From: Microtetraspora glauca
GTDB taxonomy: Bacteria > Actinomycetota > Actinomycetes > Streptosporangiales > Streptosporangiaceae
Assembly: GCA_001570385.1 (NCBI GenBank)
Contig: BBYL01000025.1
Span: 19,718 to 83,717 of the forward strand
Length of the DNA: 64,000 nucleotides
Reading direction: 5' to 3'
The notes under the pieces were generated by a model. That model ran no database searches and was not told the DNA's origin. It saw nothing but the letters and a program-made list of their open reading frames with translations. Numbering within the stretch: position 1 is the first letter of the stretch; every line of letters begins with the position of its first letter. Shown one piece after another: positions 33,540 through 64,000 of this stretch. The translations under genes and the position numbers were made by a program.

Positions 33540-34988
33540 TCACCGCGTGACGGTCTCCGCGTGCTCCCCGGCGGCGAGGCGGCGGCCGAGCAGCCGTCCG
33601 AACGTGATCGCGGGCGTGACCAGCATGCCGGAGCAGAAGCTCTGGCCGCAGGTGGCCGCCGCGCCGATCACCTCGCCGATGGCGTACAGGTTCGGCACCG
33701 AGGTGCCGTCGGTACGCCGTACCCGGAGGTCGGAGTCGATGTCGAGCCCGGCGAACGTGACGAGCGAGATGCCGTGGTTGCGTATCGCGTAGTACGGCGC
33801 ACGCTCCAGCGGAAGCGGCAGATGGGTGCGGCCGAAGTCGGGGTCGGCGCCCGCGGCGACGGCCTCGTTGTACCGGGCCGCCGACGCGACCAGACCGGCC
33901 GGATCGATGCCCGCGATCACGGCCAGCTCCTCCAGCGTTCCGGCGGAGTGCACCCCGGCCCGCTGGTTGGCACGGGCGCGCAGGTCGTCGGGCGTCCACC
34001 CGACCACGAGCGGGCGGCCCGACCGCGTCGACTCCAGCATCGCGTCGTCGAAGACGGTCCAGAAGGTCATGTCCTCGATGCGGGTGAGCGCGCGTTCCTT
34101 GACGTCGATCGAGAGCTCGTCCTCGGCGACCCAGCGCCGCCCTCCCTTGTCGACATAGATCTCCACGGGAGGACGCTCGGCCGCGATGAGGAGCTGCCGG
34201 TCCGACCAGTTGGCCTTCCCCGGCGTGGTCGGGTCGGGCAGCCCGCCGAACGTGGGCAGGTACGAACCCGTTCCCGCTACGGCGGCCCCCAGCTCCTGGG
34301 CGAGCAGGATCCCGTCGCCGGTCGAGGTCGGGTACGCCGCCGAGACGAGCGGCGCGCCCTCCAGCTCCAGGAACAGCTCGGGCTCCGCGGCGAAGCCGCC
34401 CGTGGCCAGCACCACGTCCCGCGCCCGCACGCGCACGTCCTGGCCGCCACGCAGCACGGTCACCCCGGTGACCGCGCCGTCGTCATCGGTGTCGAGGCCG
34501 ATGACGGGGGCGTTCTTCCACAGCTCCAGCCGGCCCGTGGCGATCGCCTCGTCCAGCAGGCGCTCGAACACCTCCAGGATCGACAACGCCTCGTCGGCCC
34601 CGTAGTAGGTACGCGCGGTCGCGTACGGCTCGTGCCCGTAGATGATCCGCGGCGTCTCGGGAGCGAACCGGAAGCCGCGGTCGTCCAGCCAGTCGATGGT
34701 CTCCGCGGCGTTCTCGGCGACGACGCGGACCAGGTCGGCGCGTGCGGTGCCGTCGCTGATCCGGTGGATGTCGGCCAGGTGGGCCTCGACGGAGTCGGTG
34801 ATCCCGCGCTCGGCCTGCCGTCGTGTCCCTGCCGCCGCCATGTGGCCGCCGGAGATGTGCATGGTGCCGCCGATCCGCTGGTCCTTCTCGACCAGCAGGA
34901 CCCTGGCGCCGCCGAGGGCCGCCTCGGCCGCGCAGGGAATGCCGGCGGTGCCCGCGCCGACGACCACGAGGTCGTAACTGAGTTCCAC
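33540..34988 (-). CDS. FAD-dependent dehydrogenase/fumarate-reductase-like flavoprotein
   Basis: This 482-residue protein has an N-terminal dinucleotide-binding fold (DLVVVGAGTAGIPCAAEAAL) and a substrate-cap domain. A C-terminal FAD-closing motif reads NLYAIGEVIGAAATCGQS. Family members include fumarate reductases and 3-ketosteroid delta-1-dehydrogenases; here it probably inserts or removes a C=C bond. A GTG start with AGGAG eight bases upstream is used. It is last in a four-gene minus-strand unit (nitrilase-like, ALDH, lipocalin-like, FAD) and is a paralogue of 38996-40489 in the divergent unit. The ligand is unknown. Confidence 0.85.
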   Translation of the reverse strand: MELSYDLVVVGAGTAGIPCAAEAALGGARVLLVEKDQRIGGTMHISGGHMAAAGTRRQAERGITDSVEAHLADIHRISDGTARADLVRVVAENAAETIDWLDDRGFRFAPETPRIIYGHEPYATARTYYGADEALSILEVFERLLDEAIATGRLELWKNAPVIGLDTDDDGAVTGVTVLRGGQDVRVRARDVVLATGGFAAEPELFLELEGAPLVSAAYPTSTGDGILLAQELGAAVAGTGSYLPTFGGLPDPTTPGKANWSDRQLLIAAERPPVEIYVDKGGRRWVAEDELSIDVKERALTRIEDMTFWTVFDDAMLESTRSGRPLVVGWTPDDLRARANQRAGVHSAGTLEELAVIAGIDPAGLVASAARYNEAVAAGADPDFGRTHLPLPLERAPYYAIRNHGISLVTFAGLDIDSDLRVRRTDGTSVPNLYAIGEVIGAAATCGQSFCSGMLVTPAITFGRLLGRRLAAGEHAETVTR

Positions 34989-35021
34989 CAGTGGATCTCC
35001 TGTAGTGATGTGCGTGTTCGG

Positions 35022-35483
35022 TCAGGCGTTCGTGGCAGGGACGTACCAGCGCTCGGGCTCGACGCCCGGCAGGCGGCGTTCCTCGATCACCGTGAGCCGG
35101 CTGAGCCGTCCGTCCTCGAAGTGCTGCCACAACCGGGTGCGGTAGTCCTCGGTCGGCATCGACATCTCGACGATGCGCTCACCCGGCCGCGTGTTCCAGC
35201 CGAAGGTGAACAGGATGGCCTGGTCGCCGGCGCGGCTGGTCGTCCCCCACATCTCCTCGTCGACGAACGTGACGTCGTCGCCGTCCACGATCGCGCGGTA
35301 GTGGCGGACCGCCGGTTCTGCGCCGTCCCGCAGGTAGACGACCTTCTCCGTCCAGTCGGTGCCCTCCATCCGGCCCTCCTGCCGGCTGGCGAAGCGCTCC
35401 AGAAGGGCGCCGTCGGCGCCGAGCACGGTGTACGTGCCCTCCCATACGCCCGACATGTCGGTCAGGATGTCGGCGATCGTCAT
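35022..35483 (-). CDS. Lipocalin-like (DUF3598-type) small protein, paralogue 1
   Basis: This 153-residue protein opens with the signature MSGVWEGTYTVLGADGALLE and continues RFASRQEGR. Beta strands ending in SRLTVIEERRLPG follow. Two relatives lie in this cluster (49660-50115, 60840-61313). The GVWEGTYT opening and all-beta pattern fit a calycin/DUF3598-like barrel, which binds small hydrophobic ligands, but the assignment is by resemblance. The ATGA overlap with the ALDH gene shows tight coupling. Confidence 0.55.
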   Translation of the reverse strand: MTIADILTDMSGVWEGTYTVLGADGALLERFASRQEGRMEGTDWTEKVVYLRDGAEPAVRHYRAIVDGDDVTFVDEEMWGTTSRAGDQAILFTFGWNTRPGERIVEMSMPTEDYRTRLWQHFEDGRLSRLTVIEERRLPGVEPERWYVPATNA

Positions 35484-36922
35484 CGTTCCTCCGTCTCAGT
35501 GGTGGCGGCGTCGTAGTACCAGGGCCGGGGGCCGGCCGTTTCGCGGACGAGCAGGGCGCGCCTGCGCAGGAACCGCCGGACCGAGGGCGGTCCCATCCGC
35601 GACGCGCCGAGCCCGGACATCTTGAAGGAGTTCTTCTCGGCCTCGGGGACCATGCCGGTGAGGCAGACGTCGTTGACGCTGACCCCTCCCGCGTCGATCC
35701 GGTGCCCGATCGCCATCGCCTCCTCCGCCGTACCGGCGAAGACGGCGGCGCTGAGCCCGAACTCCGTGTCGTTCGCGAGCGCGACCGCCTCGTCCTCGCC
35801 GTCGAACGTCATGACCGGGATGATCGGCCCGAAGGTCTCCTCCCGCATCAGCCGCATGGAGTGGTCGACACCGGTGACCACCGTCGGCCGCAGATAGCAG
35901 CCGCCGTCGAGGACCTCGATCGAGCCGCCGGTCCGGATCGTGGCGCCCTTCGCGACGGCGTCGTCCAGGTGCTCCCGGATGGTCGTCACCTGGGCGCCGG
36001 TGATGATCGGGCCGATCTGCCCGTCGGCGGGTTCGGGGTGGGCCAGCCGTACCCGCTCGGCCTTGGCGACCAGCGTCTCCACGAACGCGTCGGCGACGCG
36101 GTGGTCCACGTACACGCGCTCGATCGACATGCAGGCGTGCCCGGAGTTGATGGTCGAGCCCCACAGGAGGGCGGACGCGGCGCTGTCGAGGTCGGCGGAG
36201 GCGGTGACGACCGCCGGGTCCTTCCCGCCGAGCTCCAGGAACGCCGGGATGAACCGCTCGGCCGCCGCACGGGCGACCGCGCGCCCGGTGGGCACGCTGC
36301 CGGTGAAGCACACGGCGTCCGCCGCGTCGATCATCGCCGCGCCGGTGGCGCCGTCGCCCTCGACCACCGTGAAGACGTCGGAGAGGCCGGCGGCCTCCGC
36401 GACGCACTCGCGCAGCGTCGGGATGAAGCGCGGAGTCATCTCGCTCGGCTTCAGCATCACGGCCGATCCGGCGAGGAGGGCGGGAACCACGTCGATGAGC
36501 GCGAGCTGGAACGGGAAGTTCCACGGGGAGATCGCGGCGACGAGCGGGTAGGCCACCAGGTCGCCCGTCGTCCGTACCGTCGGGTCCCCCGTGGGGGAGA
36601 GGTCCGCGGGCGCGAAGGTCTCCTCGGCGAAGCGGGACGCCCGGTCGATCCCGGCCAGGACGGCGTCCACCTCGAGCACCGAGACCTGCAGGCGGCCGGT
36701 GTCGGTCACCAGTACGCGGATGAGGTCGTCGCGCCGTCGCGCGACGGCGTCGCGGAACTCCCGCAGGACGGCGATCCTCCGCTGGACGGGCCACGCCGCC
36801 CAGGCGCGCTGGCCGGCGCGCAGCCGGTCCGCCTCCGCCGCGATCCGGGCGGCGTCCATCGCGGTGATCTCGTAGTCCGTCTCGCCGGTGCGCGGGTTGC
36901 GGACGGGAATCTGCTTGGTCAC
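35480..36922 (-). CDS. Aldehyde dehydrogenase
   Basis: This 480-residue enzyme has the cofactor motif SPWNFPFQLAL, the glutamate in AFLELGGKDP and the catalytic cysteine in NSGHACMSIERV. It should oxidise an aldehyde to an acid with NAD(P). The C-terminus SFKMSGLGASRMGPPSVRRF differs from the usual betaine or benzaldehyde groups. The GTG start follows GGAG by eight bases. It lies between the nitrilase-like and lipocalin-like genes in one unit. Substrate unknown. Confidence 0.88.
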   Translation of the reverse strand: MTKQIPVRNPRTGETDYEITAMDAARIAAEADRLRAGQRAWAAWPVQRRIAVLREFRDAVARRRDDLIRVLVTDTGRLQVSVLEVDAVLAGIDRASRFAEETFAPADLSPTGDPTVRTTGDLVAYPLVAAISPWNFPFQLALIDVVPALLAGSAVMLKPSEMTPRFIPTLRECVAEAAGLSDVFTVVEGDGATGAAMIDAADAVCFTGSVPTGRAVARAAAERFIPAFLELGGKDPAVVTASADLDSAASALLWGSTINSGHACMSIERVYVDHRVADAFVETLVAKAERVRLAHPEPADGQIGPIITGAQVTTIREHLDDAVAKGATIRTGGSIEVLDGGCYLRPTVVTGVDHSMRLMREETFGPIIPVMTFDGEDEAVALANDTEFGLSAAVFAGTAEEAMAIGHRIDAGGVSVNDVCLTGMVPEAEKNSFKMSGLGASRMGPPSVRRFLRRRALLVRETAGPRPWYYDAATTETEER

Positions 36923-36934: not shown

Positions 36935-37981
36935 TCAGATCAGGCCGTCGGCGGCCAGCCGGTCGATCACAGCACGCTGCGTCGTCGCGAAGTGCGCGCG
37001 CGCGGTCTCGCCCGCCCGCACTGTGTTCGGCGGATAGAACGAGGTGCCCGCGTAGCTCGGCGCGTACAGCTCGAACCGCTGACGGGGAAGGAGGTTCATC
37101 ATCTCGGGGGCCCTGCGCGCGCGGCGCAGGGCGGCCAGGTCGATCTCGGCGTTGGCCGCCATCGACTCACCCTGGCCGGCCTTGGCCAGGACGGTGCCGC
37201 GGTAGTCGATGATCTGGCTGCCGCCGTCGGCCGACTCCGCCGGCAGGCCCATGCCGTACACGCCCGAGGTGTTGGCGGACACGACGTACGCCCCGTTCTC
37301 CACGGCGCGCGCGAGCTTGGCCACGTTCTTCGGCGACAGCAGCGCGCTGCACACCTCGGAGGAGCCGTGCAGGAACACCTCCGCGCCGCGCATGGCGAGG
37401 CAGCGGGCGACCTCGGGGAAGAGGATCTCCTCGGAGGCGATGGCGGCGAGGTTGCCGATCTCGGTCCGCGCGACGGGGAAGAGCGCGTCGTCGCCGTAGA
37501 TCGACAGGTAGCGGTCGAGGACGTCGTGCGGGGTCACGGCGAACATCGAGTTGAGCCGCCGGTATCGAAGGACGGTCTCGCCGCGCGGGTCGAGGACGAC
37601 CGACGCCTGGAAGTAGAGGCCGGGGAAGTGCTCGTCCAGCTCGTACGCGTTGACGCAGATGAACAGACCGGTGTCCCGGCTGATGTCGGCCAGCCGCGCG
37701 TACTCCTCGCCGTCGGGGGCGAGGGCCGCCCGCTCGCACCACTCGGGGAGTGGCTCGCCGATCGGATGCCCGGTGAGGAGATACTCGGGGAGCACCACGA
37801 GCTTGAGTCCTCCGACGAACCGCTGGGTCGCCGAGATCTGGTCGTGCACCCGGTCGATCGCGGCCCGGATCAGGTCGCGGCTCGCCCCGGGGCTCTCGGC
37901 CCGGTTGACGGCATGGCACGCGCTCTGGAGCGCGACCGCCCGGAAGGCGGTCACCGGCTCACCCGCAAGATCTTGACTCAC
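36935..37981 (-). CDS. Nitrilase-superfamily protein lacking the catalytic cysteine
   Basis: This 348-residue carbon-nitrogen-hydrolase fold is first in the minus unit. The glutamate is kept at E66 (LVVLPEYLLTG). The catalytic lysine position is arginine (R142, YRRLNSM). The nucleophile region, normally I-C-Y/W-E/D-x-x-FPE, reads IAS183EEILFPE, so cysteine is serine. With two of three catalytic residues changed, amide or nitrile hydrolysis by the usual route is unlikely. The GTG start at 37981 is chosen for GAGG six bases upstream. It is controlled by the operator at 37993-38017. Confidence 0.75.
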   Translation of the reverse strand: MSQDLAGEPVTAFRAVALQSACHAVNRAESPGASRDLIRAAIDRVHDQISATQRFVGGLKLVVLPEYLLTGHPIGEPLPEWCERAALAPDGEEYARLADISRDTGLFICVNAYELDEHFPGLYFQASVVLDPRGETVLRYRRLNSMFAVTPHDVLDRYLSIYGDDALFPVARTEIGNLAAIASEEILFPEVARCLAMRGAEVFLHGSSEVCSALLSPKNVAKLARAVENGAYVVSANTSGVYGMGLPAESADGGSQIIDYRGTVLAKAGQGESMAANAEIDLAALRRARRAPEMMNLLPRQRFELYAPSYAGTSFYPPNTVRAGETARAHFATTQRAVIDRLAADGLI

Positions 37982-37992
37982 GCCCCACCTCT

Positions 37993-38017
37993 GTTCCGCA
38001 TATCGAAACACTGTTTC
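37993..38017 (-). promoter_or_regulatory. Cluster operator, site 1
   Basis: On the minus strand the site is GAAAC-AGT-GTTTCG-ATATG-CGGAAC, the same 25-bp layout as five other sites. It ends 11 bp before the nitrilase-like gene start and lies just after the -10 element. Confidence 0.75.
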
Positions 38018-38141: not shown

Positions 38142-38999
38142 GTGATCTTGTCGCTTGGAGCGGTCGTCGAGGCGGTCATCGTGTGCCGGGACGTCGAGGC
38201 GTCGGCCGGTTTTCACACCCGCGCCTTCGACCTCGACGTGATCGAGCGGGACGGCGCGGAGGTGCTTCTCGGCGTCAAGGGCGTCGAAACGGGCCGGATC
38301 CGGCTCGTGCCCGCGCCCTCGGGAGCGGAGACGGCCGAGACCGCCGAGGACCCCCGGGTCTGGGACATCGGCCCCCGGCTGCTCGGCATGTACTCGCGTG
38401 ACCTCGACCGGTCCGTCCGGTCGATCGACGACGCGGGCGGCCGGTCCAGGGAACCGGTGACCTACCCGTACGGCTCCGCCTCGCTGAGCGAGTGCGTGGC
38501 ACTCGGTAGCGACGGCGTGTGGTGGACGCTGCCGAAGGCGGGCGCCGGCCACCGGCCGAGCCCCGCGCTGGAGGGCGACCCGGACCGCCTGCACGGCGAG
38601 CTGCACACGGCCGTCATCGTGCCCGCCGACCACGAGGAGGCGCTGCGCTTCTTCACCGAGGGCGGCGGGCTGACCGTCGTGTTCGACGGGGAGATGAGCG
38701 GCGAGCCGTTCGAGCGGATGATCGGCATGCCGTCCGGCGCGAGCCTGCGGCTGTCCTTCCTGGTGTCCGCCGACCAGGCCCCCGCCCGTCTGGAGATCAT
38801 GTCGTTCACCGGCGTCGACGCGGCCGACCTGTCGGACCGGCCGCTCGGGCTGCGCAGGGTCGTGTTCGCCGCCGAGGACCCGGTCTCCCTGATCACCGCG
38901 CTGGAGGCGTGCGGCGGTGACCGCGTCGGCGAGCACGTCGTACGCGGACCCGGGGGCCTTGAGGTGGAGCTGCGGGCCACGCCCGGAGCGGCGTCGTGA
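38142..38999 (+). CDS. VOC-fold (glyoxalase/extradiol-type) protein, paralogue 1
   Basis: The 285-residue product (GTG 38142; a TTG at 38148 is better spaced from GGAGG) has two VOC half-modules, about 6-125 and 138-275. The second begins LHTAVIVPADHEEALRFFTE. Metal-ligand histidines and glutamates typical of active VOC enzymes are sparse, so catalysis is uncertain. A second relative follows two genes later. VOC proteins act in ring cleavage, isomerisation and thiol conjugation. Coupled by GTGA to the FAD gene. Confidence 0.7.
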   Translation: MILSLGAVVEAVIVCRDVEASAGFHTRAFDLDVIERDGAEVLLGVKGVETGRIRLVPAPSGAETAETAEDPRVWDIGPRLLGMYSRDLDRSVRSIDDAGGRSREPVTYPYGSASLSECVALGSDGVWWTLPKAGAGHRPSPALEGDPDRLHGELHTAVIVPADHEEALRFFTEGGGLTVVFDGEMSGEPFERMIGMPSGASLRLSFLVSADQAPARLEIMSFTGVDAADLSDRPLGLRRVVFAAEDPVSLITALEACGGDRVGEHVVRGPGGLEVELRATPGAAS

Positions 39000-40499: not shown

Positions 40500-41468
40500 A
40501 TGAACGAGGAACCGCTGATGGAGAGTGTCACGTCGGCGGTGCTCGGCGTGACCGACTTCGGGCCCCACATCGACCTCTTCTGCGGTGAGCTCGGATTCGA
40601 GGTCGCGAACGAGGGGGTCGTGCGGGAGGCCGACGCGGCCCGGTTGTGGGGCGACGGCGTCGGCGACGTCGAGACCCGGCTCCTCACCGCCGCGGGCGCC
40701 CGTACCGGCCGGATCCACCTGCTGAAGGTGGCCGACCCGGTGGCGCCGGCGGAGCATCCGCACACGCTGGACCTCGGCCTCGCCGGCCTCAATCTCTACA
40801 CGCGGGACATCGAGGCGTCCCATGACCGCCTGGTGGCCGTGGGGCATCCCTGGACCACCGCTCCGTCGACGTACGAGGTGCCTCTGGGCGACACGGTCGT
40901 GTCGGTCACGGAGGGCTTCTGCTTCGGGCCGGACGGGGTCGACGTCGTCTTCGTCCAGCCGGCCAACGCCCGCGGCACGGAGGCGTGGAGCGCCGATCCG
41001 CTACGGCCCTACACGGAGCTGACGTCCGTCGTGTGCCACGTCCCCGACTTCGAGGCGGAACTGCGCTTCTGGGGGCCGGAGGGGCTCGGCCTGTCCGCCC
41101 GGTACGACGTGACGTTCAGCTCTCCGGGGCTGGAGGCGATGGCGGAACTACCCGAGGGAACCGTGCTGCGGCTCGCCTTCGTCACGGGCGCGGGGGGCGG
41201 CACCACCCGCATCGAGATGATCCATGTCGCGGACAACGTCCGCGGGGTGGACCGGCGCCCGGCGCAGCGGCCCGCACGCGATCTCGGGCACACCGGCTGG
41301 TCCGTACGGACCCGGGACGTCGAGGCGGCCGTGGCGCGCGCCGAGGAGACCGGGGGCCGGGTGTCGTGCCGCCCGTTCGACGCCGTCACCCCGCTGCACG
41401 GGGCGGCGCGGCTCGCCGTCGTGGACACGCCGAACGGGATCTCCGTCGAGCTCTGGCAGCCGAGCTGA
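40500..41468 (+). CDS. VOC-fold protein, paralogue 2
   Basis: This 322-residue double VOC protein has segments VTSAVLGVTDFGPHIDLFCG and LTSVVCHVPDFEAELRFWG, and ends DTPNGISVELWQPS. It is related to 38142-38999 (same two-module layout). The ATG has GGGAG upstream. It closes the VOC-FAD-VOC unit, followed by a small hairpin. Confidence 0.72.
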   Translation: MNEEPLMESVTSAVLGVTDFGPHIDLFCGELGFEVANEGVVREADAARLWGDGVGDVETRLLTAAGARTGRIHLLKVADPVAPAEHPHTLDLGLAGLNLYTRDIEASHDRLVAVGHPWTTAPSTYEVPLGDTVVSVTEGFCFGPDGVDVVFVQPANARGTEAWSADPLRPYTELTSVVCHVPDFEAELRFWGPEGLGLSARYDVTFSSPGLEAMAELPEGTVLRLAFVTGAGGGTTRIEMIHVADNVRGVDRRPAQRPARDLGHTGWSVRTRDVEAAVARAEETGGRVSCRPFDAVTPLHGAARLAVVDTPNGISVELWQPS

Positions 41469-42833: not shown

Positions 42834-42892
42834 CCCGCCGGTGCCCCGGAGCCGGCCTTCCGCCATCCCATTCCCCCGAGAGGAACACCCGC

Positions 42893-48103: not shown

Positions 48104-48121
48104 GGGCTTGCCTTTCTCCGT

Positions 48122-50165: not shown

Positions 50166-50190
50166 GAAACGCCGTTCCGCTAGAGGGAAC
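50166..50190 (+). promoter_or_regulatory. Cluster operator, site 5
   Basis: GAAAC-GCC-GTTCCG-CTAGA-GGGAAC, between the divergent lipocalin-like gene and gntR. It can serve both, including autoregulation. Confidence 0.75.
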
Positions 50191-50231
50191 ATGAGGCTGA
50201 GTTTCGCGCCCACTGTGGTTAGGCTGGGGGC

Positions 50232-55224: not shown

Positions 55225-56384
55225 CGCTGAACGCGATCCGTCCGAGCCACTTCCCGTGGTTCCGCTACGACGGTTACTCCTTCTCCCTTGGCCTGACGCA
55301 CGGCGAGGGCGCCTGGCTGTCCGGTCACTCCGCGAGCGAGTACGACCCCGAGTCCGGGCGTATCGTCGTGCGCGGCGGCATGACCGAGCAGGCCAGGACC
55401 GCCTACGCGAAGATCGGCGCGATCCTCGACGCCGCGGGGCTGTCCTTCGCCGACGTCACCCGCGTCACCGAGAACGTCACGGTCGCCGGCCTGGACGCCT
55501 ACGAGGAGGCCGCCGCCGTACGCGCCGAGATCTTCGGCGCGCACAACCCGGCCGTCACCACCGTGATCGTCGAGCGTCTGCTGCGCCCGGCCGCCTTCAT
55601 CGAGGTCGAGGTGCACGCGAGCAAGGGCGGGCCCGCGGCGCTGCCCGGCGGCGTGGCCGAGGCGCCGGACGGGGCGGTCTTCCTGCCCACCGTCCTGCCC
55701 GTCGACGAGCGCGGCGACGTGGTCCACGAGGGCGACCTGGTCGGCCAGTACGCCTACTGCCTCGACCAGGCCGACCGGCTGCTGCGCGGGGCCGGGCTGT
55801 CGCTGGACGCCGCCGTCACGACGTACGACTACACGACGCCGGCCACCCGCGACGTCTACCGCCGCACGCACCGCGTCCGCAAGGAACGGCTCGGCGGCGC
55901 GGGGGTCTTCCCGGGCGCCGGCGGCATCCTCATGAGCCGGCTGCACCGCCCCGGCGTGCTCGTCGCGCTCGACGTCACCGCGTCGCGGCACCCGCTGGAG
56001 GCGGTCAACCCCGGGTGGGCCCGCTACGACACCCTCACCTACACCCCCGGCGTCAAGGCCGGCGACATGCTGTGGATGAGCGGCTTCGCGTCGCTGGACA
56101 TGGAGACCCAGCAGGTCCTGCACCCGGGCGACGTGGTGGCCCAGGCCGAGGTCACGTACGACGCGATCCTCCAGGTCCTGGACGCCGCCGGCACCGGGCC
56201 CGAGCACCTGCTCTCGACGATCGAGTTCGTCTGCCCCGAGGGCCTGGCCGACTACCGCGGCGTCGCCGACGTGCGCAAGCGGCGGCTGCGCGACCCGTGG
56301 CCCGCGTCCACCGGCGCGATCTGCGCGGGGCTGCTCCGGCCGGAGTTCCTGATCGAGGTCTTCCCGGCGGCGGTGCTGCCGTGA
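55221..56384 (+). CDS. Triple RidA (YjgF/YER057c/UK114) domain protein
   Basis: This 387-residue protein has three consecutive RidA-like domains: about 10-135, 140-258 and 262-387. Each ends in the subunit-core strand, as in RLLRPAAFIEVEVHA, RLHRPGVLVALDVTA and LLRPEFLIEVFPA. RidA proteins hydrolyse enamines or imines and normally form trimers of single domains; here one chain may form the whole trimer. Its job may be to clear a nitrogenous or enol intermediate. Overlaps both neighbours by four bases. Confidence 0.75.
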   Translation: MTLNAIRPSHFPWFRYDGYSFSLGLTHGEGAWLSGHSASEYDPESGRIVVRGGMTEQARTAYAKIGAILDAAGLSFADVTRVTENVTVAGLDAYEEAAAVRAEIFGAHNPAVTTVIVERLLRPAAFIEVEVHASKGGPAALPGGVAEAPDGAVFLPTVLPVDERGDVVHEGDLVGQYAYCLDQADRLLRGAGLSLDAAVTTYDYTTPATRDVYRRTHRVRKERLGGAGVFPGAGGILMSRLHRPGVLVALDVTASRHPLEAVNPGWARYDTLTYTPGVKAGDMLWMSGFASLDMETQQVLHPGDVVAQAEVTYDAILQVLDAAGTGPEHLLSTIEFVCPEGLADYRGVADVRKRRLRDPWPASTGAICAGLLRPEFLIEVFPAAVLP

Positions 56385-56881
56385 GCCTGATGACCGAGGA
56401 GATCCGCGCGCTGGTCGGCCGGGAGGTGTCCTACACCGCTCCCGAGGAGCTGGGCCGGGCCGCGATCCGGTACTTCGCCCGCGCCGTCGGCGACGACAAC
56501 CCGCTCTACACCGACGACGCGTACGCCCGCGAGCACGGGTACGACGGCGTCATCGCGCCGCCCACGCTGATCTGCGAGACCAACCAGTACGCCGACCTGC
56601 GGCCGGACGCCGACGGCTACGCCGGACACGACTGGCACATCGACATCCCCGGCAGCCGGAAGGTCCGCGGCGGCAACACCTACACCTTCCACGAGCCGGT
56701 CCGGCCGGACGACGTGATCACCGCGACCTGGCGGCTCGACGGCGTCACCGAGCGGCGGAACTCCGCTGGGCAGGAGATGCTCGTCGTCTCCTCGGTCGCC
56801 ACCTACACCAACCAGCACGGCCGGCTGCTCGTCACGAACGAGGAGACCATCATCTTCGTCGCACTGAAGGAGGAGCGGTGA
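56381..56881 (+). CDS. MaoC-type FAS1-like dehydratase, N-half
   Basis: This 166-residue hot-dog protein begins VGREVSYTAPEELGRAAI and has the active region DDNPLYTDDAYAREHGYDGV followed by IAPPTLICETNQ. It resembles one half of two-subunit hydratases in steroid and fatty-acid degradation. The next gene is its probable partner. Confidence 0.82.
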   Translation: MSLMTEEIRALVGREVSYTAPEELGRAAIRYFARAVGDDNPLYTDDAYAREHGYDGVIAPPTLICETNQYADLRPDADGYAGHDWHIDIPGSRKVRGGNTYTFHEPVRPDDVITATWRLDGVTERRNSAGQEMLVVSSVATYTNQHGRLLVTNEETIIFVALKEER

Positions 56882-57306
56882 CCGGGCCCGAGGTGACGGT
56901 CGGCTCCGAGGTCGCACCCCTGGAGCGGACGATAGAGCTGCGCGACATGGTCGCCTACGCCGGGGCCACCTGGGACTGGCACCGGATGCACTACGACTTC
57001 GAATACCTGCAGAAACGAGGGCTGCCCGCGCCGGTCGTGGACGGGCAGGTCTTCGGCGCGCTGCTCGCCGAGCAGCTCCAGGACTGGCTCGGCCCGCGCG
57101 CCGTCGTGCGCCGCCTGCACTTCCGGTTCAAGAACCTCGTGTTCGCGGGCGAGACCGTCCGCTGCACCGGCCGGGTCATCGCGGTCGAGGGCGACACCCT
57201 CAGGGTGGAGCAGCGGATCGTGATCATCGACGGTGACGAGCCGGAGCGGGTGGCGGTCGAGCCCGCGGGGGCCGAGATCGTCCTGCGCGCCGAGGAGGCG
57301 CCATGA
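56878..57306 (+). CDS. MaoC-type dehydratase, partner half
   Basis: This 142-residue hot-dog protein has the hydratase motif YAGATWDWHRMHYDFEYL, with the usual catalytic aspartate or asparagine near the histidine. VDGQVFGALLAEQLQDWLG follows. Paired with the preceding gene by a GTGA overlap, the two likely form a hetero-oligomeric hydratase like ChsH1/ChsH2 MaoC pairs. Confidence 0.82.
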   Translation: MTGPEVTVGSEVAPLERTIELRDMVAYAGATWDWHRMHYDFEYLQKRGLPAPVVDGQVFGALLAEQLQDWLGPRAVVRRLHFRFKNLVFAGETVRCTGRVIAVEGDTLRVEQRIVIIDGDEPERVAVEPAGAEIVLRAEEAP

Positions 57307-58451
57307 GCACGGGTGTGGCGATCGTCGGAGCCGCCGAGAGCGACCTCGGCGTCACCGGCAGGTCGATCCTGGGCCTGCAGGCCCAGGCCGTCAGCCGGGC
57401 GGTCGAGGACGCCGGCCTCACCCTCGCCGACGTCGACGGCCTGGCGACCACGGGCGTGTCCCGGTTCTCCACGACGCAGGTGGCCGACTACCTCGGGCTG
57501 CGCCCGTCCTGGACCGACTCGACCTTCGCCGGCGGATCCGCGTTCGAGATGTACGTCGCCCGCGCCGCGCAGGCCATCGAGGCCGGCCAGTGCTCGACCG
57601 TCGTCATCTCCTACGCGTCCAACCAGCGCTCCGCCAGGTCGCGGTCGCTGGCCGGGGTGGTGGAGACGCACACGCCCGAGGCGCAGTTCGAGACGCCCTA
57701 CGGGCCGCTCTATCCGATCTCCTACTACGCCATGGCCGCCCAGCAGTACCTCCACCGGTACGGCGGGAGCCGCGAGGCGCTGGCCGAGGTCGCGGTCGCC
57801 GCCCGCGAGTGGGCGCTGCTCAACCCGGCGGCCTTCCGGCACGGTGCCGGCCCGCTGACCGCCGCCGACGTGCTCGCCGCCCCCATGGTGTCGACGCCGC
57901 TGACGACGGCGGACTGCTGCCTGGTCACCGACGGGGGAGGCGCGGTCGTCCTCACCTCGCTGGATCGGGCGCGTGACCTGCCCAAACCGCCGGTACGGGT
58001 GCTGGGCTACGGCGAGTGCACGACCAACACGTCCATGACCGCGGTGGACGATCTGACCGTGACCGGCGCGGTCGAGTCCGGGCGGGCCGCCTTCGCCAGG
58101 GCCGGTCTCGTCCCGGCTGACGTGGACGTCGCCGAGGTCTACGACTCCTTCACCGTCACGGTCGTGCTCACGCTGGAGGCACTCGGGTTCTGCGGCCGGG
58201 GCGAGGCGCTCGACTGGATCGCCGGAGGCCGGATCCGGCCCGGCGGCGACTTCCCGCTCGACACCTCCGGCGGCGGCCTGTCCTACTGCCATCCGGGCCA
58301 GTACGGCGTGCTGCTGCTGGTCGAGGCCGTACGGCAGCTGCGCGGCGAGTGCGGCGCCCGGCAGGTGCCCGGCGCGGAGGTCGCGCTCGCGCACGGCACC
58401 GGCGGCATCCTGTCCACGCACGCTACCGTCCTGCTGGGAGTGGACCGATGA
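57303..58451 (+). CDS. Thiolase-superfamily lipid-transfer (Ltp2-like) protein
   Basis: This 382-residue thiolase-like protein has closing motifs LSYCHPGQYG and AHGTGGILSTHAT. The N-terminal nucleophile region reads DSTFAGGSAFEMY, where thiolases have C-A-S-G; the cysteine position is F75. Losing that cysteine is typical of steroid aldolase Ltp2-type proteins, which work with a DUF35 partner. Such a partner is the very next gene (ATGA overlap). A retro-aldol cleavage role is plausible by this pairing. Confidence 0.82.
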   Translation: MSTGVAIVGAAESDLGVTGRSILGLQAQAVSRAVEDAGLTLADVDGLATTGVSRFSTTQVADYLGLRPSWTDSTFAGGSAFEMYVARAAQAIEAGQCSTVVISYASNQRSARSRSLAGVVETHTPEAQFETPYGPLYPISYYAMAAQQYLHRYGGSREALAEVAVAAREWALLNPAAFRHGAGPLTAADVLAAPMVSTPLTTADCCLVTDGGGAVVLTSLDRARDLPKPPVRVLGYGECTTNTSMTAVDDLTVTGAVESGRAAFARAGLVPADVDVAEVYDSFTVTVVLTLEALGFCGRGEALDWIAGGRIRPGGDFPLDTSGGGLSYCHPGQYGVLLLVEAVRQLRGECGARQVPGAEVALAHGTGGILSTHATVLLGVDR

Positions 58452-58846
58452 GCGCGGAGGTACCCGAGCCCGACGAGGTGACCGGCCCCTGGTGGGAGGC
58501 CACCCGCCGGCGAATCCTGCTCGTCCAGAGCTGCGGCGCCTGCGGGCACACGCAGCACCCGCCGCGCGCGCTGTGCACCGGCTGCGGTTCTGACCGCCAC
58601 CTCGACTGGGTCGAGGCGTCGGGCGCGGCCGTGGTCGACGCGTGCACCGTGGTCGAGCGGGCGATGCCCGGCTTCGCCCCGCCGTACGTCGTGGCGCGGG
58701 TCCGGCTGGCGGAGGGCGTGCTGCTGCTCAGCAACGTGGTCGCCGACGATCCGTACCTGCTGGACACCGGCGATCGGCTCCGCCTCGACTGGCGCCCGCT
58801 GCCCGACGGGCGCGCACTTCCCGTTTTCGTACCTTCCGAGAGGTGA
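58448..58846 (+). CDS. DUF35 zinc-ribbon/OB-fold acyl-CoA partner protein
   Basis: This 132-residue protein has a four-cysteine rubredoxin-like knuckle, C29-x2-C32 and C43-x2-C46, then an OB-fold (GAAVVDACTVVERAM, then PYVVARVRLAEGVLL). These proteins bind acyl-CoA and pair with thiolase-like enzymes. The direct neighbour and overlap support that. Confidence 0.9.
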   Translation: MSAEVPEPDEVTGPWWEATRRRILLVQSCGACGHTQHPPRALCTGCGSDRHLDWVEASGAAVVDACTVVERAMPGFAPPYVVARVRLAEGVLLLSNVVADDPYLLDTGDRLRLDWRPLPDGRALPVFVPSER

Positions 58847-58849: not shown

Positions 58850-60016
58850 GTGGACTTCGAGCTGAACGAGGACCAGCGTGAGTTCCGCGCGCTGCTGCGC
58901 GCGTTCGTCGACAAGGAGATCGTGCCCGTCGCCCGGGACTGGGAGCACTCCGGCCGCTACCCGACCGAGATCGTCGAAGGCTTCAAGCAGATGGGCCTGT
59001 TCGGCGTCACCGTCCCGGAGAGCTACGGCGGGCTCGACCTGGACCCGGTGTCCTTCGCGCTCGTCTTCGAGGAGATCTCGCGCGGCTGGATGGGCGTGGC
59101 CGGGATCCTCGGCAGCCACTCGCTGGCCTGCCGGATGATCGCGACGCACGGCACGGAGGAGCAGAAGGAGCGCTACCTTCCCGAGCTGGCCACCGGCGAG
59201 CGGCGCACCGGGATCGGCCTCACCGAGCCCGACGCGGGCACCGACCTGCAGGGCATCCGGACGACCGCCCGCCTTGAGGGCGACCACTACGTGGTCAACG
59301 GCAGCAAGACGTGGATCACCAACGCCCGGTACGCCGACCCGCTGCCGGTGCTGGTGAAGACCGACCCGGCCGCCAGCCCGGCGCACCGCGGGATGAGCAT
59401 CCTGCTCGTCGACGCGGACACCCCCGGCTACCAGGTCACCAAGGACATCCCGAAGCTGGGATACAAGGGCACCGAGTCCTGCGAGATCGTGCTCGACAAC
59501 GTCCGGGTCCCCGTGGCCAACCTGCTGGGAGGCGTCGAGGGCCGCGGCATGCAGCAGGCGCTGTCCGCGCTCGAATGGGGCCGGGTCAACATCGCGTCCC
59601 GCTCGGTCGGCATCGCGCAGCGCGCCTACGACGAGGCCCTCTCCTACTCCCGGCAGCGCAAGGCGTTCGGGCGGCCCATCGCCGACTTCCAGGCGGTCCA
59701 GCTCCAGCTCGCCTCGCTGGCCACGACGCTCCAGGCCGCCCGGCTCATGGCGTACTGGGCGGCGGACCAGGTGCGGCGCGGCCGGGCCGACACGCAGACG
59801 GGAATGGCCAAGATCTTCTGCTCCGAGGTGGCGCTGCAGGCCGCCATCGACGCGCTGAAGGTCCACGGCGGGTACGGCTACTCCACCGAGTACGAGGTGG
59901 AGCGGCTCTACCGGGACGCGGTGCTGATGAGCATCGGCGAGGGCACCAACGACGTGCTGCGCACCGTCGTGGCCAAGTCCCTCACCCGCGGCGACGCGAA
60001 GGTCGGGTGGGCGTGA
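58850..60016 (+). CDS. Acyl-CoA dehydrogenase
   Basis: This 388-residue flavoenzyme has the family signatures GIGLTEPDAGTDLQGIRTTA, HGGYGYSTEYEVERLYRD and, near the end, SIGEGTNDVLR, whose glutamate is the usual catalytic base. It makes an alpha,beta-enoyl-CoA, a substrate for the MaoC hydratases upstream. Starts at GTG 58850. Confidence 0.92.
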   Translation: MDFELNEDQREFRALLRAFVDKEIVPVARDWEHSGRYPTEIVEGFKQMGLFGVTVPESYGGLDLDPVSFALVFEEISRGWMGVAGILGSHSLACRMIATHGTEEQKERYLPELATGERRTGIGLTEPDAGTDLQGIRTTARLEGDHYVVNGSKTWITNARYADPLPVLVKTDPAASPAHRGMSILLVDADTPGYQVTKDIPKLGYKGTESCEIVLDNVRVPVANLLGGVEGRGMQQALSALEWGRVNIASRSVGIAQRAYDEALSYSRQRKAFGRPIADFQAVQLQLASLATTLQAARLMAYWAADQVRRGRADTQTGMAKIFCSEVALQAAIDALKVHGGYGYSTEYEVERLYRDAVLMSIGEGTNDVLRTVVAKSLTRGDAKVGWA

Positions 60017-60843
60017 TGAGCGCCCGCTCCCACCTCTACGTCCCGGGCGACGCCCCGGAAAAGCTCGCCAAGGCGCTCACCCGGGGCGCGGACGCCCTGA
60101 TCGTGGACCTGGAGGACGCCGTACCGGCCGCAGGGAAGGACGCGGCCAGGGAGGCGGTGGCCGGCTGGCTGCGTACGGCCGATCCGGGGCCGGTGGAGAT
60201 CTGGGTCCGGGTCAACCCCGGCGACCTGCGCGAGGCCGACGTACGGGCCGTCGCCACCGCCCCGGCGTTGACCGGTCTGGTCCTCGCCAAGGTCGAGACG
60301 GCGGAGGAACTCGCCGACGTCGACGCCCTGCTGACCTCCCTCGGCGCGGATCGGCTGCCGGTCGTCCCGCTCCTCGAGTCGGCCGCCGCCGTACTGCGGG
60401 CGCCGCGGATCGCGGCGGCTCCCCGCGTGGCCCGGCTCCAGGTCGGCGAGGCCGACCTGCGCGCCGACGCGGGGATCACTCTCGGCCCCGACGAGCGCGA
60501 GCTGCTCTGGGTCCGCTCCCAGGTGGTGCTGGCCTCGGCGGCGGCGGGCATCGACCCCCCCGTCGGTCCCGTCTCCACCGACTTCCGCGACCTCGACGCG
60601 CTGCGGGACTCGACGGCCGCGCTGGCCCGGCTGGGCTACGTCGGCCGGGCCTGCATCCACCCGGCGCAGATCGCGGTCGTCAACGAGGTCTTCACCCCGG
60701 CGGCCGAGGAGGTCGCCTGGGCCGGCGACCTCGTGGACCGCTTCGAGGCCTCGGGGTCGGGGGTGCTCCTCGACTCCAAGGGACGCATGGTCGACGAGGC
60801 GATCGTGCGCCAGGCACGCAGGGTACTCAGGAGGGCACGTTGA
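60016..60843 (+). CDS. HpcH/HpaI/CitE-family CoA-ester lyase
   Basis: This 275-residue TIM-barrel aldolase begins SHLYVPGDAPEKLAKAL, has the Mg-binding EDAVP motif (VDLEDAVPAAGK), and a glutamate in LLESAAAVLRA. It ends RACIHPAQIAVVNEVF. Relatives cleave citramalyl-, malyl- or methylmalyl-CoA into pyruvate or glyoxylate and a smaller acyl-CoA. In this operon it is the obvious carbon-carbon cutting step. Confidence 0.9.
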   Translation: MSARSHLYVPGDAPEKLAKALTRGADALIVDLEDAVPAAGKDAAREAVAGWLRTADPGPVEIWVRVNPGDLREADVRAVATAPALTGLVLAKVETAEELADVDALLTSLGADRLPVVPLLESAAAVLRAPRIAAAPRVARLQVGEADLRADAGITLGPDERELLWVRSQVVLASAAAGIDPPVGPVSTDFRDLDALRDSTAALARLGYVGRACIHPAQIAVVNEVFTPAAEEVAWAGDLVDRFEASGSGVLLDSKGRMVDEAIVRQARRVLRRAR

Positions 60844-61933: not shown

Positions 61934-61963
61934 TCTACGGAACCACAGCTCCGGAACCACAGG

Positions 61964-62021: not shown

Positions 62022-63434
62022 CTACCAGCCGATCACGGTGGTGTCGAGGAGGCCGGCGACGCTGCCGCGCTCCGCGAGCCCGCGTACCTCGCCCGCGAGC
62101 GCCTCGGCCGCCTCGGACGGCAGCACGCGGGAGGCGTTGAGGGCGTACTTCGTCCGCAGCTCGTCGAACGTCAGCGGGTGCTCCGGCCCGCCCCGCGAGG
62201 AGTGGACCCGGTGCTCCAGGGTGCTCCCGTCCACGGTGCGGACCCGCAACACGGCGGAGAAGGCCCGGGGGAACTCCTCGCCGCACTCTTCGTCGGCCAC
62301 GACGCGCACCTTGGCGGCCAGCGCCAGCCTCCGCTCGTCACGGAAGGCCGACTCGGCGAAGTCGTCGAGGTGCAGGCCGAGGCCGCCGCCCCCGATCAGG
62401 GCGCTGGCCACGGTGTACGGGCCGGAGAACTTGGCGTGGTACGGCGTACGCGGCCGCACCTTCTCCTCGTACGGCTCGCCGATCGTGCGAAGGGGAGCCG
62501 CCGCCACGCCGAGCTCGATCTCCGCCACGTCCTCGGGCCGCAGTCCCTGGGCGCGCAGGGCGAGGGCGGCGTCGATGCCGGGGTGGGTGAAATGGTTCGA
62601 GGGATAGGGCTTGTAGACCGTGCGCAGCAGCTCCCACCGCTCGCCCAGCCCGTCGGTGATCGCGTCACCGTCGTAGCGCCCGTCGAGGAACGCCTCGAAG
62701 AAGCCGAAGCGCCCCTCGAATACCGTCGGAGGACCGGTCACGCCTTCTGCGGCCATGGTGGCGGCGACGACGCCCGCGTGCGCGGCCCAGCCGCAGTGCA
62801 CCCGCTTCACGGTGCCGCCGGTGCGGTTGGCCTCGATGACGCCCGCGCCCATGCTGGCCGCGATGCCCATGGCGTGGCCGATGCCGTCCGCGGAGAGGCC
62901 CATCAGCAGGGCCGCCCCGGCGGCGGCGCCCACCGTCCCGCAGATGGACGTGGCGTGCCAGCCCTTCTCGAAGAAGAGGGAGTTGCGCAGTTCGGGGATG
63001 TAGGAGGCCATCCCCAGCCGGTTGGTGATCTCGTCGCCCACCGCCACGGCACGGCACAGCTCGGCGCCCGACGCGCCCACGGCCTCCGCGACGGCCAGCG
63101 TGGCGGGGACGACGGAGGCCGACGGGTGGAGGACGGAGGGCAGGTGGGTGTCGTCGAAGTCCAGGGCGTGCGCGAGCGTGCCGTTGACCAGCGCCGCCGA
63201 GGGCGCGGGGAGGGACAACCCGCGGCCGATGACGGAGGACTCGCCCGTGCCGCTCCACCGCTTCGCCATCCGCAGCACCGCCTCGTGCGGCTCGGCCGGA
63301 TCGGTGAGCTCCTGGGCGGCGAGGCAGTTCCCGAAGGTGTCGAGCACCCGTCCCGTCACGTCGGCGGCGACGGCGTCCGGCAGTCCCTCGCGGGCGTCGG
63401 CGGCGAATTCGGCCAGCGCCGAGACGATGGTCAT
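62022..63434 (-). CDS. MmgE/PrpD-family protein, copy 2
   Basis: This 470-residue relative of the 53815 product has HALDFDDTHLPSVLHPSA, FFEKGWHATSICGTVGAA and KPYPSNHFTHPGIDA. The two differ in the third block, so substrates may differ. The ATG at 63434 overlaps the cyclase-like stop (ATGA). It is transcribed toward the main operon and ends at the shared terminator. Confidence 0.88.
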   Translation of the reverse strand: MTIVSALAEFAADAREGLPDAVAADVTGRVLDTFGNCLAAQELTDPAEPHEAVLRMAKRWSGTGESSVIGRGLSLPAPSAALVNGTLAHALDFDDTHLPSVLHPSASVVPATLAVAEAVGASGAELCRAVAVGDEITNRLGMASYIPELRNSLFFEKGWHATSICGTVGAAAGAALLMGLSADGIGHAMGIAASMGAGVIEANRTGGTVKRVHCGWAAHAGVVAATMAAEGVTGPPTVFEGRFGFFEAFLDGRYDGDAITDGLGERWELLRTVYKPYPSNHFTHPGIDAALALRAQGLRPEDVAEIELGVAAAPLRTIGEPYEEKVRPRTPYHAKFSGPYTVASALIGGGGLGLHLDDFAESAFRDERRLALAAKVRVVADEECGEEFPRAFSAVLRVRTVDGSTLEHRVHSSRGGPEHPLTFDELRTKYALNASRVLPSEAAEALAGEVRGLAERGSVAGLLDTTVIGW

Positions 63435-64000
63435 GCGGCGAGCACCGCGAGCGGTCGCACCGGCGCGCCGGTGGCGCCCACGACGGGCAGCGGGTTGAGC
63501 ACCAGCAGGAACTCGGCGACGCCGAGGCCGAGCAGTTCGGTGAGGCGCATCGTCTCGACGATGTGCACACCCGCCTCGACGAGCAGGATCCGGTGCACGG
63601 GCAGCGTGGAGTGGCCGCGGCCGGGCGCGATGCGCTCGAACGCGATGGTCTCGCCTCCGGCCACCGCGACGCCGTGGTCGACCAGCCAGCGGGCCGCGTC
63701 GGGGCCGGGGCCGGGCACGCCGCCCTCGTCGCCGACGAACCGGGTCGGCCGGTCCCACTCGCGCGACCAGCCGGTGCCGATCAGTACGGCGTCTCCACGC
63801 TCGACCCGCACGTCCGCCCTGCGCTGCGCGGCTTCCAGATCGTCCGGCGTCACCTCGTAGCCGGGCGGCAGCACGTCCACTCCGTGCACGGCGGCCACGT
63901 CGAGCAGCACACCCCGCCCGACGTACGGCGCGAAGGTCTCGATGCCGTACTGGGACAGGCCGTGGTGCGACTGGATGCCCGCCGCCTCGACCTCGCCGTA
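63431..64000 (-). CDS. Cyclase-family (kynurenine-formamidase-like) metal hydrolase, partial
   Basis: The frame is open to the right edge, so the N-terminus is missing; 189 residues are visible. Motifs are IQSHHGLSQYGIETFAP, RGVLLDVAAVHGVDVLPPG and ADVRVERGDAVLIGTGW, then the later VVETMRLTELLGLG-type end. The family hydrolyses amides or lactones with a metal and includes kynurenine formamidase and isatin hydrolase. It is coupled to MmgE/PrpD copy 2. Confidence 0.8.
   Translation of the reverse strand, partial: YGEVEAAGIQSHHGLSQYGIETFAPYVGRGVLLDVAAVHGVDVLPPGYEVTPDDLEAAQRRADVRVERGDAVLIGTGWSREWDRPTRFVGDEGGVPGPGPDAARWLVDHGVAVAGGETIAFERIAPGRGHSTLPVHRILLVEAGVHIVETMRLTELLGLGVAEFLLVLNPLPVVGATGAPVRPLAVLAA

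Follow-up and report, generated by a model that had tools for sequence, protein, structure and literature searches.

A stretch of 64,000 nucleotides from contig BBYL01000025.1 of Microtetraspora glauca (the window) carries 32 consecutive genes, g26-g57, across 33,540-64,000. With about as much confidence for as against, these genes are interpreted here as a putative IclR-type regulon that combines a lower pathway for a branched dicarboxylate with an upper pathway that is possibly nitrogenous. In their centre is an operon of 11 genes, g43-g53, in which the dicarboxylate genes are interspersed with those of a triple Rid protein, a hydratase and a predicted retro-aldolase. A dicarboxylate route resembling the operon centre is already known, and so are 3x-RidA proteins. 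In triple-Rid-bearing actinobacteria, however, such a route is constantly joined by a triple-Rid/hydratase/retro-aldolase cassette, and this link, like the upper pathway, appears to be new. The genes of the operon are as follows:

51064..51585, + strand: g43, MaoC hydratase of the itaconyl/mesaconyl-CoA hydratase type (ICH); RipB_Ich 202 bits, cut-off 340
51585..52619, + strand: g44, luciferase-like oxidoreductase (LLM); PF00296; TIGR03617 194 bits, cut-off 278
52616..53818, + strand: g45, family III CoA-transferase, itaconate CoA-transferase-like (ICT); mesaconate CoA-transferase model 246 bits, cut-off 700
53815..55224, + strand: g46, MmgE/PrpD protein, methylsuccinate isomerase-like (MSI); PF03972 2.7e-63
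55221..56384, + strand: g47, triple Rid protein (3x-RidA); PF01042; AlphaFold2 (AF2) model
56390..57306, + strand: g48 and g49, MaoC pair; family scans, residues
57303..58451, + strand: g50, thiolase-like protein, predicted retro-aldolase; PF22691; NF004811 475 bits, over the cut-off of 421
58448..58846, + strand: g51, zinc-ribbon/OB partner (DUF35, ChsH2-type); PF01796, PF12172
58850..60016, + strand: g52, acyl-CoA dehydrogenase, methylsuccinyl-CoA dehydrogenase-like (MCD); PF00441; 51% identical to Caballeronia Mcd
60016..60843, + strand: g53, CitE/RipC-type C-C lyase (CCL); RipC_Ccl 173 bits, cut-off 375

The itaconate/methylsuccinate cluster ict-ich-ccl-mcd-MmgE has been described in Cupriavidus necator and as PA0878-PA0883 in Pseudomonas aeruginosa (Gonner et al. 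2025, PMC12290011; PMC9875883), and the genetics are in agreement (De Witt et al. 2023, PMC9875883). In the former paper, 96.2% of the isomerases are in Pseudomonadota and the isomerase site is said to be able to admit larger, C3-modified substrates (PMC12290011). The original prediction stated that the gene set matched no pathway known to it, which no longer holds for five of its genes, as these match this cluster by family (PMC12290011; PMC9875883). Its further statement that no substrate could be recognised is overtaken for the centre of the region, which resembles the described dicarboxylate route, and stands for the rest: the described pathway covers only 5 of the 32 genes by family assignment, so it is not the whole region.

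The identities to the cluster of a Caballeronia plasmid were 57% for g43, 51% for g45, 51% for g52, 38% for g46 and 38% for g53, and those to the five-gene cluster of an Azospirillum plasmid ranged from 39 to 53%. When Caballeronia Ict was searched against the host genome, g45 was the best match at 404 bits and 51% identity, followed by a protein at 197 bits. Judged from these scores, g45 is orthologous to the CoA-transferase of the proteobacterial five-gene clusters, the query being an uncharacterised Caballeronia homolog. The residue D169 of g45 was found in at least 97% of 47 sequences, and R65, E121 and D147 of g53 in at least 97% of 40 sequences. Two MmgE/PrpD genes, g46 and g56, were found in the genome at E 1e-10. 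H88, H102 and K203 (Caballeronia numbering) were present in all of 53 g46-type sequences, with an Asp where the paper names Glu91. Moreover, CoA-transferases 68-76% identical to g45 were found on Rhodococcus and Amycolatopsis plasmids (six records). The two plasmids examined carry smaller versions of the cluster that are devoid of the extra operon genes. That of Rhodococcus pyridinivorans (L108, NC_023144.1, 16576-24080) has the order GntR-MaoC-CaiB-MmgE/PrpD-acyl-CoA dehydrogenase-CitE, and an IS256 transposase adjoins a short MmgE/PrpD gene. That of Amycolatopsis sp. AA4 (L109, NZ_CP024895.1, 17474-28529) has two MaoC and two CitE-type genes around genes for an aminotransferase and a lysine 2,3-aminomutase. 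Finally, L124, the one stretch of four from Burkholderiales with usable gene calls, has four of the five genes and lacks MmgE/PrpD.

Relatives of the operon were collected by a scan of the genome collection with the triple-Rid family, from which the best 80 of 109 loci were kept, and presence was counted in all 80 by frame-free tblastn. The loci were grouped by hand according to the record titles into 60 from Actinomycetota and 13 proteobacterial/deltaproteobacterial ones, with seven left out (L055, L057, L088, L090, L096, L103 and L105). The 60 take in two records titled Bifidobacterium breve, and among the 13 are L077, under the title Klebsiella pneumoniae, and L085, under that of uncultured bacterium. 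L052, L071 and L077 are metagenome-assembled genome records with operon or triple-Rid genes under the titles Bifidobacterium breve or Klebsiella pneumoniae, and these titles look wrong.

Of the Actinomycetota-titled loci, 41 are flanked by 8 kb or more on either side. All of these have g45, g46, g48, g49, g50, g51 and g52, while g44 was found in 40, g43 in 39 and g53 in 35. The complete set of five dicarboxylate genes occurred in 33 of these 41 loci, and at least four of the five in 46 of the 60 Actinomycetota-titled loci when incomplete contigs were counted. The search for conserved clusters proposed with the original prediction, run here with the triple-Rid protein, recovered an 11-gene operon that includes CaiB and MmgE/PrpD genes, and its order and single strand were as in the window in 46 of the 49 loci holding at least nine of the 11 genes. 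In two of the three exceptions (L053 and L106) the lyase gene is on the opposite strand, and the third (L080) is rearranged. The 13 proteobacterial/deltaproteobacterial loci had the MaoC pair (13 loci), an own_13-type ligase (10) and a g52-like dehydrogenase (9), while four of the five dicarboxylate genes were found by tblastn in none of them; ICH, ICT and CCL were all absent from 12, and the remaining one (L087) had a CoA-transferase match of 31%. Given this pattern of a MaoC pair and ligase free of the dicarboxylate set, the upper unit appears to be separable from the lower pathway. The triple-Rid gene itself is patchy, being found at E 1e-50 in 7 of 296 genomes of the class, that of the window counted. 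A plasmid search with g47 returned 19 records, none of which spanned 80% of g47, and no description of this gene combination was found in the open-licence literature, where a search on cyclic imides likewise brought up nothing usable.

The 32 genes were called in the unannotated DNA with a codon-usage caller and lie in five strand blocks. Because same-strand gaps of 94-132 bp (g32/g33, g39/g40 and g42/g43) divide these blocks further, we infer about eight likely units and their borders, in agreement with the earlier estimate of about 30 catabolic genes in at least six units. The families named in that estimate were also recovered by Pfam and NCBIfam: two Liv-type binding proteins, CaiB, an acyl-CoA dehydrogenase, three MaoC proteins, a CitE-type lyase, a thiolase-like/OB pair, MmgE/PrpD proteins (the second being g56), a triple Rid protein and three DUF3598 proteins. 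This content is consistent with the view, already taken there, that carboxylic acids are converted to CoA esters and then cleaved. No Rfam element was found at gathering thresholds in 33,400-64,000.

The upstream neighbor g25, which we take to be a penicillin-binding protein, is outside the cluster. At the other end, the cluster extends past the window to about 84,900, which gives a size of ~51 kb from position 33,540 in a genome of 9.27 Mb. Encoded beyond the window end are a second CaiB, an IclR regulator (own_5), a dihydropyrimidinase-type amidohydrolase (own_6), Liv permease and ATPases, a DUF4437 protein, an acyl-CoA ligase, a VOC-like protein 60% identical to g32, a fourth DUF3598 protein, a Dpp-type importer and an additional nitrilase-like protein. 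Three modules are separable between genomes: B (g26-g41), A (g42-g55) and C (g56 onward). In the stretches read, one genome of the same genus (G001) has B, A and C, another (G002) has A and C and lacks B, and G013 has A alone; a genome of another genus (G019) has A and B, its A genes being ordered differently. Thus, of the idea of one 30-kb system, the standing together of the genes in the window genome is retained, whereas, by gene content across these genomes, they are several separately travelling pieces that reach to ~84,900 and not one conserved block.

Most units are preceded by a palindrome, tGTTCCGn5CGGAACa. The strong sites inside the window are:

37992..38010, no strand: operator-like palindrome TGTTCCGCATATCGAAACA, between divergent g29/g30; 26.6 bits
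38107..38125, no strand: operator-like palindrome CGTTCCGTAGATCGGAACA, exact core; 23.6 bits
41547..41565, no strand: operator-like palindrome upstream of g33; 24.2 bits; L039 has a site at the substrate-binding protein (SBP)/flavoprotein gap
50173..50191, no strand: operator-like palindrome between g41/g42; 21.1 bits; likewise upstream of GntR in L029 and L032
50975..50993, no strand: operator-like palindrome upstream of the g43 operon; 20.6 bits

Ten sites of at least 18 bits were found in 122,999 bp of contig. All were intergenic, although the intergenic share of the cluster is 5%, and all were at window positions 37,992-78,397, five inside the window and five beyond it. Sixty second-order Markov-shuffled copies gave two such matches in total. 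The matrix was made from eight sites, and seven of the ten strong sites were in the training set; the other three are near own_12, own_14/own_15 and own_16. The matrix was derived from the region itself, which leaves these three sites and the relatives as independent tests. The shared operator-like motif of the original prediction is confirmed, with ten strong intergenic sites in 41 kb out of 123 kb of contig, and its regulon claim has gained in strength, while a strong site was not found for every unit. Four of the eight in-window gaps hold the five strong sites, a fifth has a version of 14.5 bits, a sixth (the g39 promoter) reaches 10 bits only, and the matrix scan found no palindrome in the other two. 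Beyond the window, three gaps were examined first, and two of them have strong sites. The 9.27-Mb genome contains the exact core GTTCCGN5CGGAAC nine times, four of these in the region; with two mismatches allowed, the pattern is unspecific, matching 782 places in the genome vs. 524 for the reversed pattern.

Related clusters of other genera have the palindrome between their genes as well. Loci below 62% GC and ten with visibly wrong frames were left out of this count, which covered 56 of the 80 loci. In 14 of these 56 high-GC loci, 24 matches of at least 17 bits were found, 21 of which were intergenic against an intergenic share of 6.5%; shuffled loci gave 1.3 matches per set. The sites are at corresponding places: upstream of ICH (the g43 homolog; L028, L029, L032 and L033), upstream of GntR, in the gap beside CAI2, in the SBP/flavoprotein gap and beside own_12 homologs. 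An own_5 homolog (58-89% identical) is in view in L028, L033, L076 and L106, and all four have sites. We infer that own_5 is the predicted binder of the palindrome. The GntR regulator g42, whose homolog was found in 25 of the 41 well-flanked actinobacterial loci, is the alternative candidate.

The favored mechanism is as follows. Own_5, encoded just past the window, would bind the palindrome. The substrate of the lower pathway would be a branched 1,4-dicarboxylate of the methylsuccinate/itaconate kind, whose stereocentre would be set by the MmgE/PrpD protein g46 and whose CoA ester would be formed by the CoA-transferase g45. The ester would then be dehydrogenated by g52, hydrated by g43 and cut by the CitE-type lyase g53 to an acyl-CoA and a 2-oxo acid. 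A second hydrate-and-cleave cassette, in which g48/g49 would be the hydratase and g50/g51 a retro-aldolase of the Ltp2/ChsH2-DUF35 type, may shorten a larger precursor together with g44 and g47. This precursor would be supplied by modules B and C and two ABC importers, and own_6 and g57 suggest that it may contain a cyclic amide or imide.

The thiolase-like protein g50 matches benzoylsuccinyl-CoA thiolase 7pxp at 1.8e-35 and the Ltp2-type 6ok1, presumably TcLtp2, at 1e-50. Its Gly78 aligned with the nucleophilic Cys of thiolase 7yvy, so that the thiolase Cys is absent. The motif Y280-D-S-F was present in at least 97% of 53 sequences, with Y280 aligned to the YDHF Tyr of 6ok1. This Tyr acts as base in CtSal and TcLtp2 (PMC12329534). 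The second residue of the Ltp2/Sal enzymes (Tyr344 in Ltp2, Cys304 in Sal) was not matched, as H330 of g50 aligns to the Tyr of 6ok1 and a Ser replaces Cys304. These features suggest a retro-aldolase that would act after hydration by g48/g49. MaoC hydratases carry a His at the site where g48 reads DNPLY; NPLY was found in 49 of 72 g48-type sequences and NPLW in one, and 22 were unmatched by the pattern. The partner g49 had D33/H38 in at least 97% of 65 sequences, and the four cysteines of g51 (C29, C32, C43 and C46) were present in at least 97% of 37 sequences. The luciferase-like oxidoreductase g44 may be F420-dependent, because an F420:NADP oxidoreductase-domain family (one member scanned) was found in 6 of the 80 loci.

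The AF2 model of g47 (pLDDT 96.1, pTM 0.93) has three Rid domains, predicted to form a pseudo-trimer. Its top whole-chain fold match was chorismatase (Z 26 over 286 residues, 3.0 A, 17-19% identity, TM-score ~0.55 by query length). Single repeats matched RutC and RidA at Z near 19, and the first and third repeats matched single Rid chains. The triple-Rid alignment took in 52 of 69 references. In all 52, the Arg of RidA that follows P-A was absent from all three repeats, Q57/Q176/Q308 and R101/R220/R352 were invariant, and Y94/Y213/Y345 were found in 52, 51 and 52 sequences, respectively. Imine deamination of the RidA type was rejected as the default activity, as this Arg is missing from all repeats. 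Isochorismatase-family proteins were found in 10 of the 80 loci, which bears on a Rut-type uracil pathway (LLM, Rid, isochorismatase, alpha/beta hydrolase). The AtzD/barbiturase Toblerone fold is a monomer thought to be derived from concatenated Rid-like units (PMC3758960). AtzD was not among the fold matches of g47 listed.

The argument for nitrogen comes from own_6 and g57, as a precursor with a cyclic amide or imide is suggested by the intactness of these two genes. The metal ligands of dihydropyrimidinases/hydantoinases are H, H, a carboxylated K, H, H and D, and in own_6 H63, H65, K155, H210, H267 and D343 were present in six of six sequences; the protein was below the equivalog cut-off of TIGR02033 (242/393 bits). 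H61, H65, D67 and H71 of g57 were present in all 16 sequences. In g29, the Glu of the Glu-Lys-Cys triad is kept, with Lys changed to Arg and Cys to Ser in all seven g29-type sequences, g29 counted, and a nitrilase/amidase activity of g29 was rejected on the loss of Lys and Cys. In own_21, which was aligned with g29 and is not in this count, the Cys is absent and a Lys is kept nearby. Losses in g29 (nitrilase Lys/Cys, 7/7) and g47 (RidA Arg, 52/52) bear out the earlier suspicion that some folds of the region are possibly non-catalytic. The DUF3598 proteins are predicted from the g54 model to be small calycin barrels. The closest folds were BFA1 (Z 17.3), a DUF3598 protein (15.9) and the phycobiliprotein lyase CpeS (15.0), followed by the spirocyclases OssO (14.5) and OlmO (13.5) and nitrobindins (14).

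Several observations weigh against the reading of a branched-dicarboxylate lower pathway with a nitrogenous upper one. First, the equivalog cut-offs were unmet by g43 (202/340 bits, RipB_Ich) and g53 (173/375, RipC_Ccl), and g45 was far under that for mesaconate CoA-transferase (246/700). The proteins compared were uncharacterised Caballeronia and Azospirillum homologs standing in for the characterised ones of P. aeruginosa and C. necator. Caballeronia Mcd matched another locus of the genome at 435 bits vs. 423 for g52; the dehydrogenase that outscores g52 is in a second group of CaiB and acyl-CoA dehydrogenase genes (G000 C6:500974-505551). Moreover, the Tyr of methylsuccinate isomerase was unseen at the aligned site, whose numbering is uncertain by one; there, His was found in 53 of 53 g46-type and Phe in 17 of 17 g56-type sequences. 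Regarding the regulator, no site was found between genes near the IclR-like genes of L101 and L102 (30-31% identity). Regarding the phylum distribution, L057 (a proteobacterium-titled record, Saccharospirillum, outside the 13) has four of the five dicarboxylate genes, as have L055 and L096, which speaks against a clear-cut division by phylum. In addition, all counts are conditioned on the triple-Rid query, so that the frequency of the five-gene set lacking triple-Rid is not derivable from them, and this selection bias matters because Rhodococcus and Amycolatopsis plasmids carry the five-gene set or a smaller version without triple-Rid. Finally, the nitrogen argument is weakened by the lost nitrilase residues of g29.

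A simpler explanation, unlikely in our view although the least so of the alternatives, is that the operon is an actinobacterial itaconate/methylsuccinate cluster whose substrate is itaconate or methylsuccinate itself, with the extra genes being accessory or for detoxification. All five published families are represented, and the minimal operons on the Rhodococcus and Amycolatopsis plasmids, with their 68-76% identical CoA-transferase, function as a precedent, L108 and L109 having none of the extra genes. However, the extra operon genes were found in 40 or 41 of 41 triple-Rid loci in a nearly constant order, which is much for passengers, albeit the loci of that count were chosen by one of these extra genes. 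Furthermore, g43 and g53 are well under the itaconate equivalog cut-offs.

Next in order, and likewise improbable, is a set that acts on larger alkyl- or aryl-substituted succinates/itaconates or on a terpenoid/steroid-like side chain that the g48-g51 cassette would cleave. The matches of g50 to 7pxp (1.8e-35) and 6ok1 (1e-50), the resemblance of g50/g51 and g48/g49 to ChsH1-ChsH2/Ltp2 and the membership of g26 and g31 in the superfamily that holds KstD are all in line with such substrates. The isomerase site could take larger, C3-modified ones (PMC12290011). However, no ring-hydroxylating oxygenase or steroid-specific family was found among the genes scanned, and the KstD scores of the flavoproteins are far under the cut-off (g26, PRK12844, 161/789).

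A bolder version of the nitrogenous upper pathway, which we regard as a long shot, makes the triple-Rid protein and the MaoC pair the core of an undescribed cyclic-amide/imide catabolic route. The pseudo-threefold site (Q, E/D, Y and R per domain) would catalyze a reaction other than imine hydrolysis, and the lipocalin-like DUF3598 proteins, similar in fold to bilin- and haem-binding barrels (CpeS, nitrobindin) among others, would carry a bulky substrate. In its boldest form, a tetrapyrrole-derived bilin or a substituted maleimide would be opened by own_6/g57 and fed as substituted succinates via two MmgE/PrpD-CaiB pairs into the itaconate-type lower pathway. Last, a biosynthetic rather than catabolic cluster, as might be proposed from SnoaL-like g39, chorismatase-like g47, the thiolase-like fold and the spirocyclase-like lipocalins (g54 model, OssO Z 14.5 and OlmO 13.5), is very improbable given that no polyketide or peptide synthase was found among the genes scanned, which include part of those beyond the window, and that two importer systems and a full family set for CoA-ester cleavage are present.

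The other genes of the region are listed below:

33540..34988, - strand: g26, FAD_binding_2 flavoprotein, module B; PF00890 8e-58; 88% identical orthologs in G001 and G019
35022..35483, - strand: g27, DUF3598 lipocalin-like; PF12204 26.7 bits, cut-off 22; fold carried over from the g54 model
35480..36922, - strand: g28, aldehyde dehydrogenase; PF00171 2.5e-110
36935..37954, - strand: g29, nitrilase-fold protein lacking catalytic Lys and Cys; PF00795; residue alignment
38142..38999, + strand: g30, VOC protein, two-domain by length; PF00903
38996..40489, + strand: g31, second FAD_binding_2 flavoprotein; PF00890 4.8e-52; TcuA model 185 bits, cut-off 369
40500..41468, + strand: g32, two-domain VOC; PF00903 and PF13669, one on each half
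41601..44122, + strand: g33 and g34, Liv-type substrate-binding proteins; PF13458 8e-45, 1e-44
44136..46486, + strand: g35, double alpha/beta hydrolase, and g36, weakly like DUF6134/DUF3108; family scan
46443..48559, - strand: g37 SDR, g38 VOC and g39 SnoaL-like; family scan
48668..50115, - strand: g40, MDR reductase, and g41, DUF3598; top NCBIfam of g40 curcumin reductase, 278 bits, cut-off 440
50232..50969, + strand: g42, GntR/FCD regulator; PF00392, PF07729
60840..61933, + strand: g54, DUF3598, and g55, cupin; family scan; g54 structure model
62022..63434, - strand: g56, second MmgE/PrpD, module C; genome search; NF042438 60 bits, cut-off 950
63431..64000, - strand: g57, PF04199 cyclase-type metal hydrolase, cut by the window end; PF04199 7e-30; complete at L003:149-952

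The superfamily of g26 is that of fumarate reductases, tricarballylate dehydrogenase and KstD, and g26 was above the cut-off for none of the 25 NCBIfam models listed. The Liv permease and ATPase genes are outside the window (L003 5176-8656). Relatives of g35 (33-39% identical) were found in the triple-Rid loci L082, L083, L085, L101 and L102. Away from the region, window positions 231-3132 encode two xylan-type enzymes, one of GH62 and one of GH10, both of which have a ricin-type lectin domain.

These results tie a described five-gene dicarboxylate route to a larger and well conserved actinobacterial operon, whose additions include a triple-Rid protein and a predicted retro-aldolase with an unusual motif, and the operator provides a handle for mapping the regulon and seeking its inducer. 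The substrate may be a common environmental compound, given that the genes were found in apparently lake-titled records (e.g. LacPavin) and in two 1.4-Mb genomes. One 5.9-kb contig from a 1.4-Mb actinobacterial genome (L023, G044 C105) carries LLM, CoA-transferase, MmgE/PrpD, triple-Rid and MaoC-pair genes.

Among known systems, the benzylsuccinate (Bbs) pathway has, in the order of its steps, a CaiB CoA-transferase, an acyl-CoA dehydrogenase, a hydratase and a thiolase-like protein with an OB partner, all of which are found here. BbsB and the Bbs CoA-transferase were among the matches; different from Bbs, however, the BbsB model reached only 132/750 bits and a CitE lyase and MmgE/PrpD proteins are additional here. 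The steroid systems ChsH1-ChsH2/Ltp2 and Shy/Sal share the MaoC hydratase, the thiolase-fold aldolase, the DUF35 zinc-ribbon and the Tyr of YDxF, and differ (PMC12329534) in that the motif of g50 is YDSF with His330 at the second Tyr and that steroid genes are missing from the context here. Triple Rid proteins have also been named before, as 3x-RidA, together with EF_0115 of Enterococcus faecalis (Niehaus et al. 2015, PMC4433059, available in part). Similar to g47, they have three tandem Rid domains and are presumed covalent trimers; different from what that part of PMC4433059 contains, g47 is in a catabolic operon and the RidA Arg is gone from all three of its repeats. The likeness of g47 to AtzD/barbiturase lies in the concatenated Rid-like units (PMC3758960), whereas its Pfam match is to PF01042 alone.

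The closest system is still the itaconate/methylsuccinate cluster, all five families of which are matched by g45, g43, g53, g52 and g46 in one gene run, and a GntR gene adjoins the Caballeronia and Azospirillum versions too. Different from that cluster, however, the five genes are here inside an 11-gene operon with LLM, triple-Rid, MaoC-pair and thiolase-like/DUF35 genes, and they are accompanied by Liv and Dpp importers, whereas Azospirillum and P. aeruginosa have TRAP.

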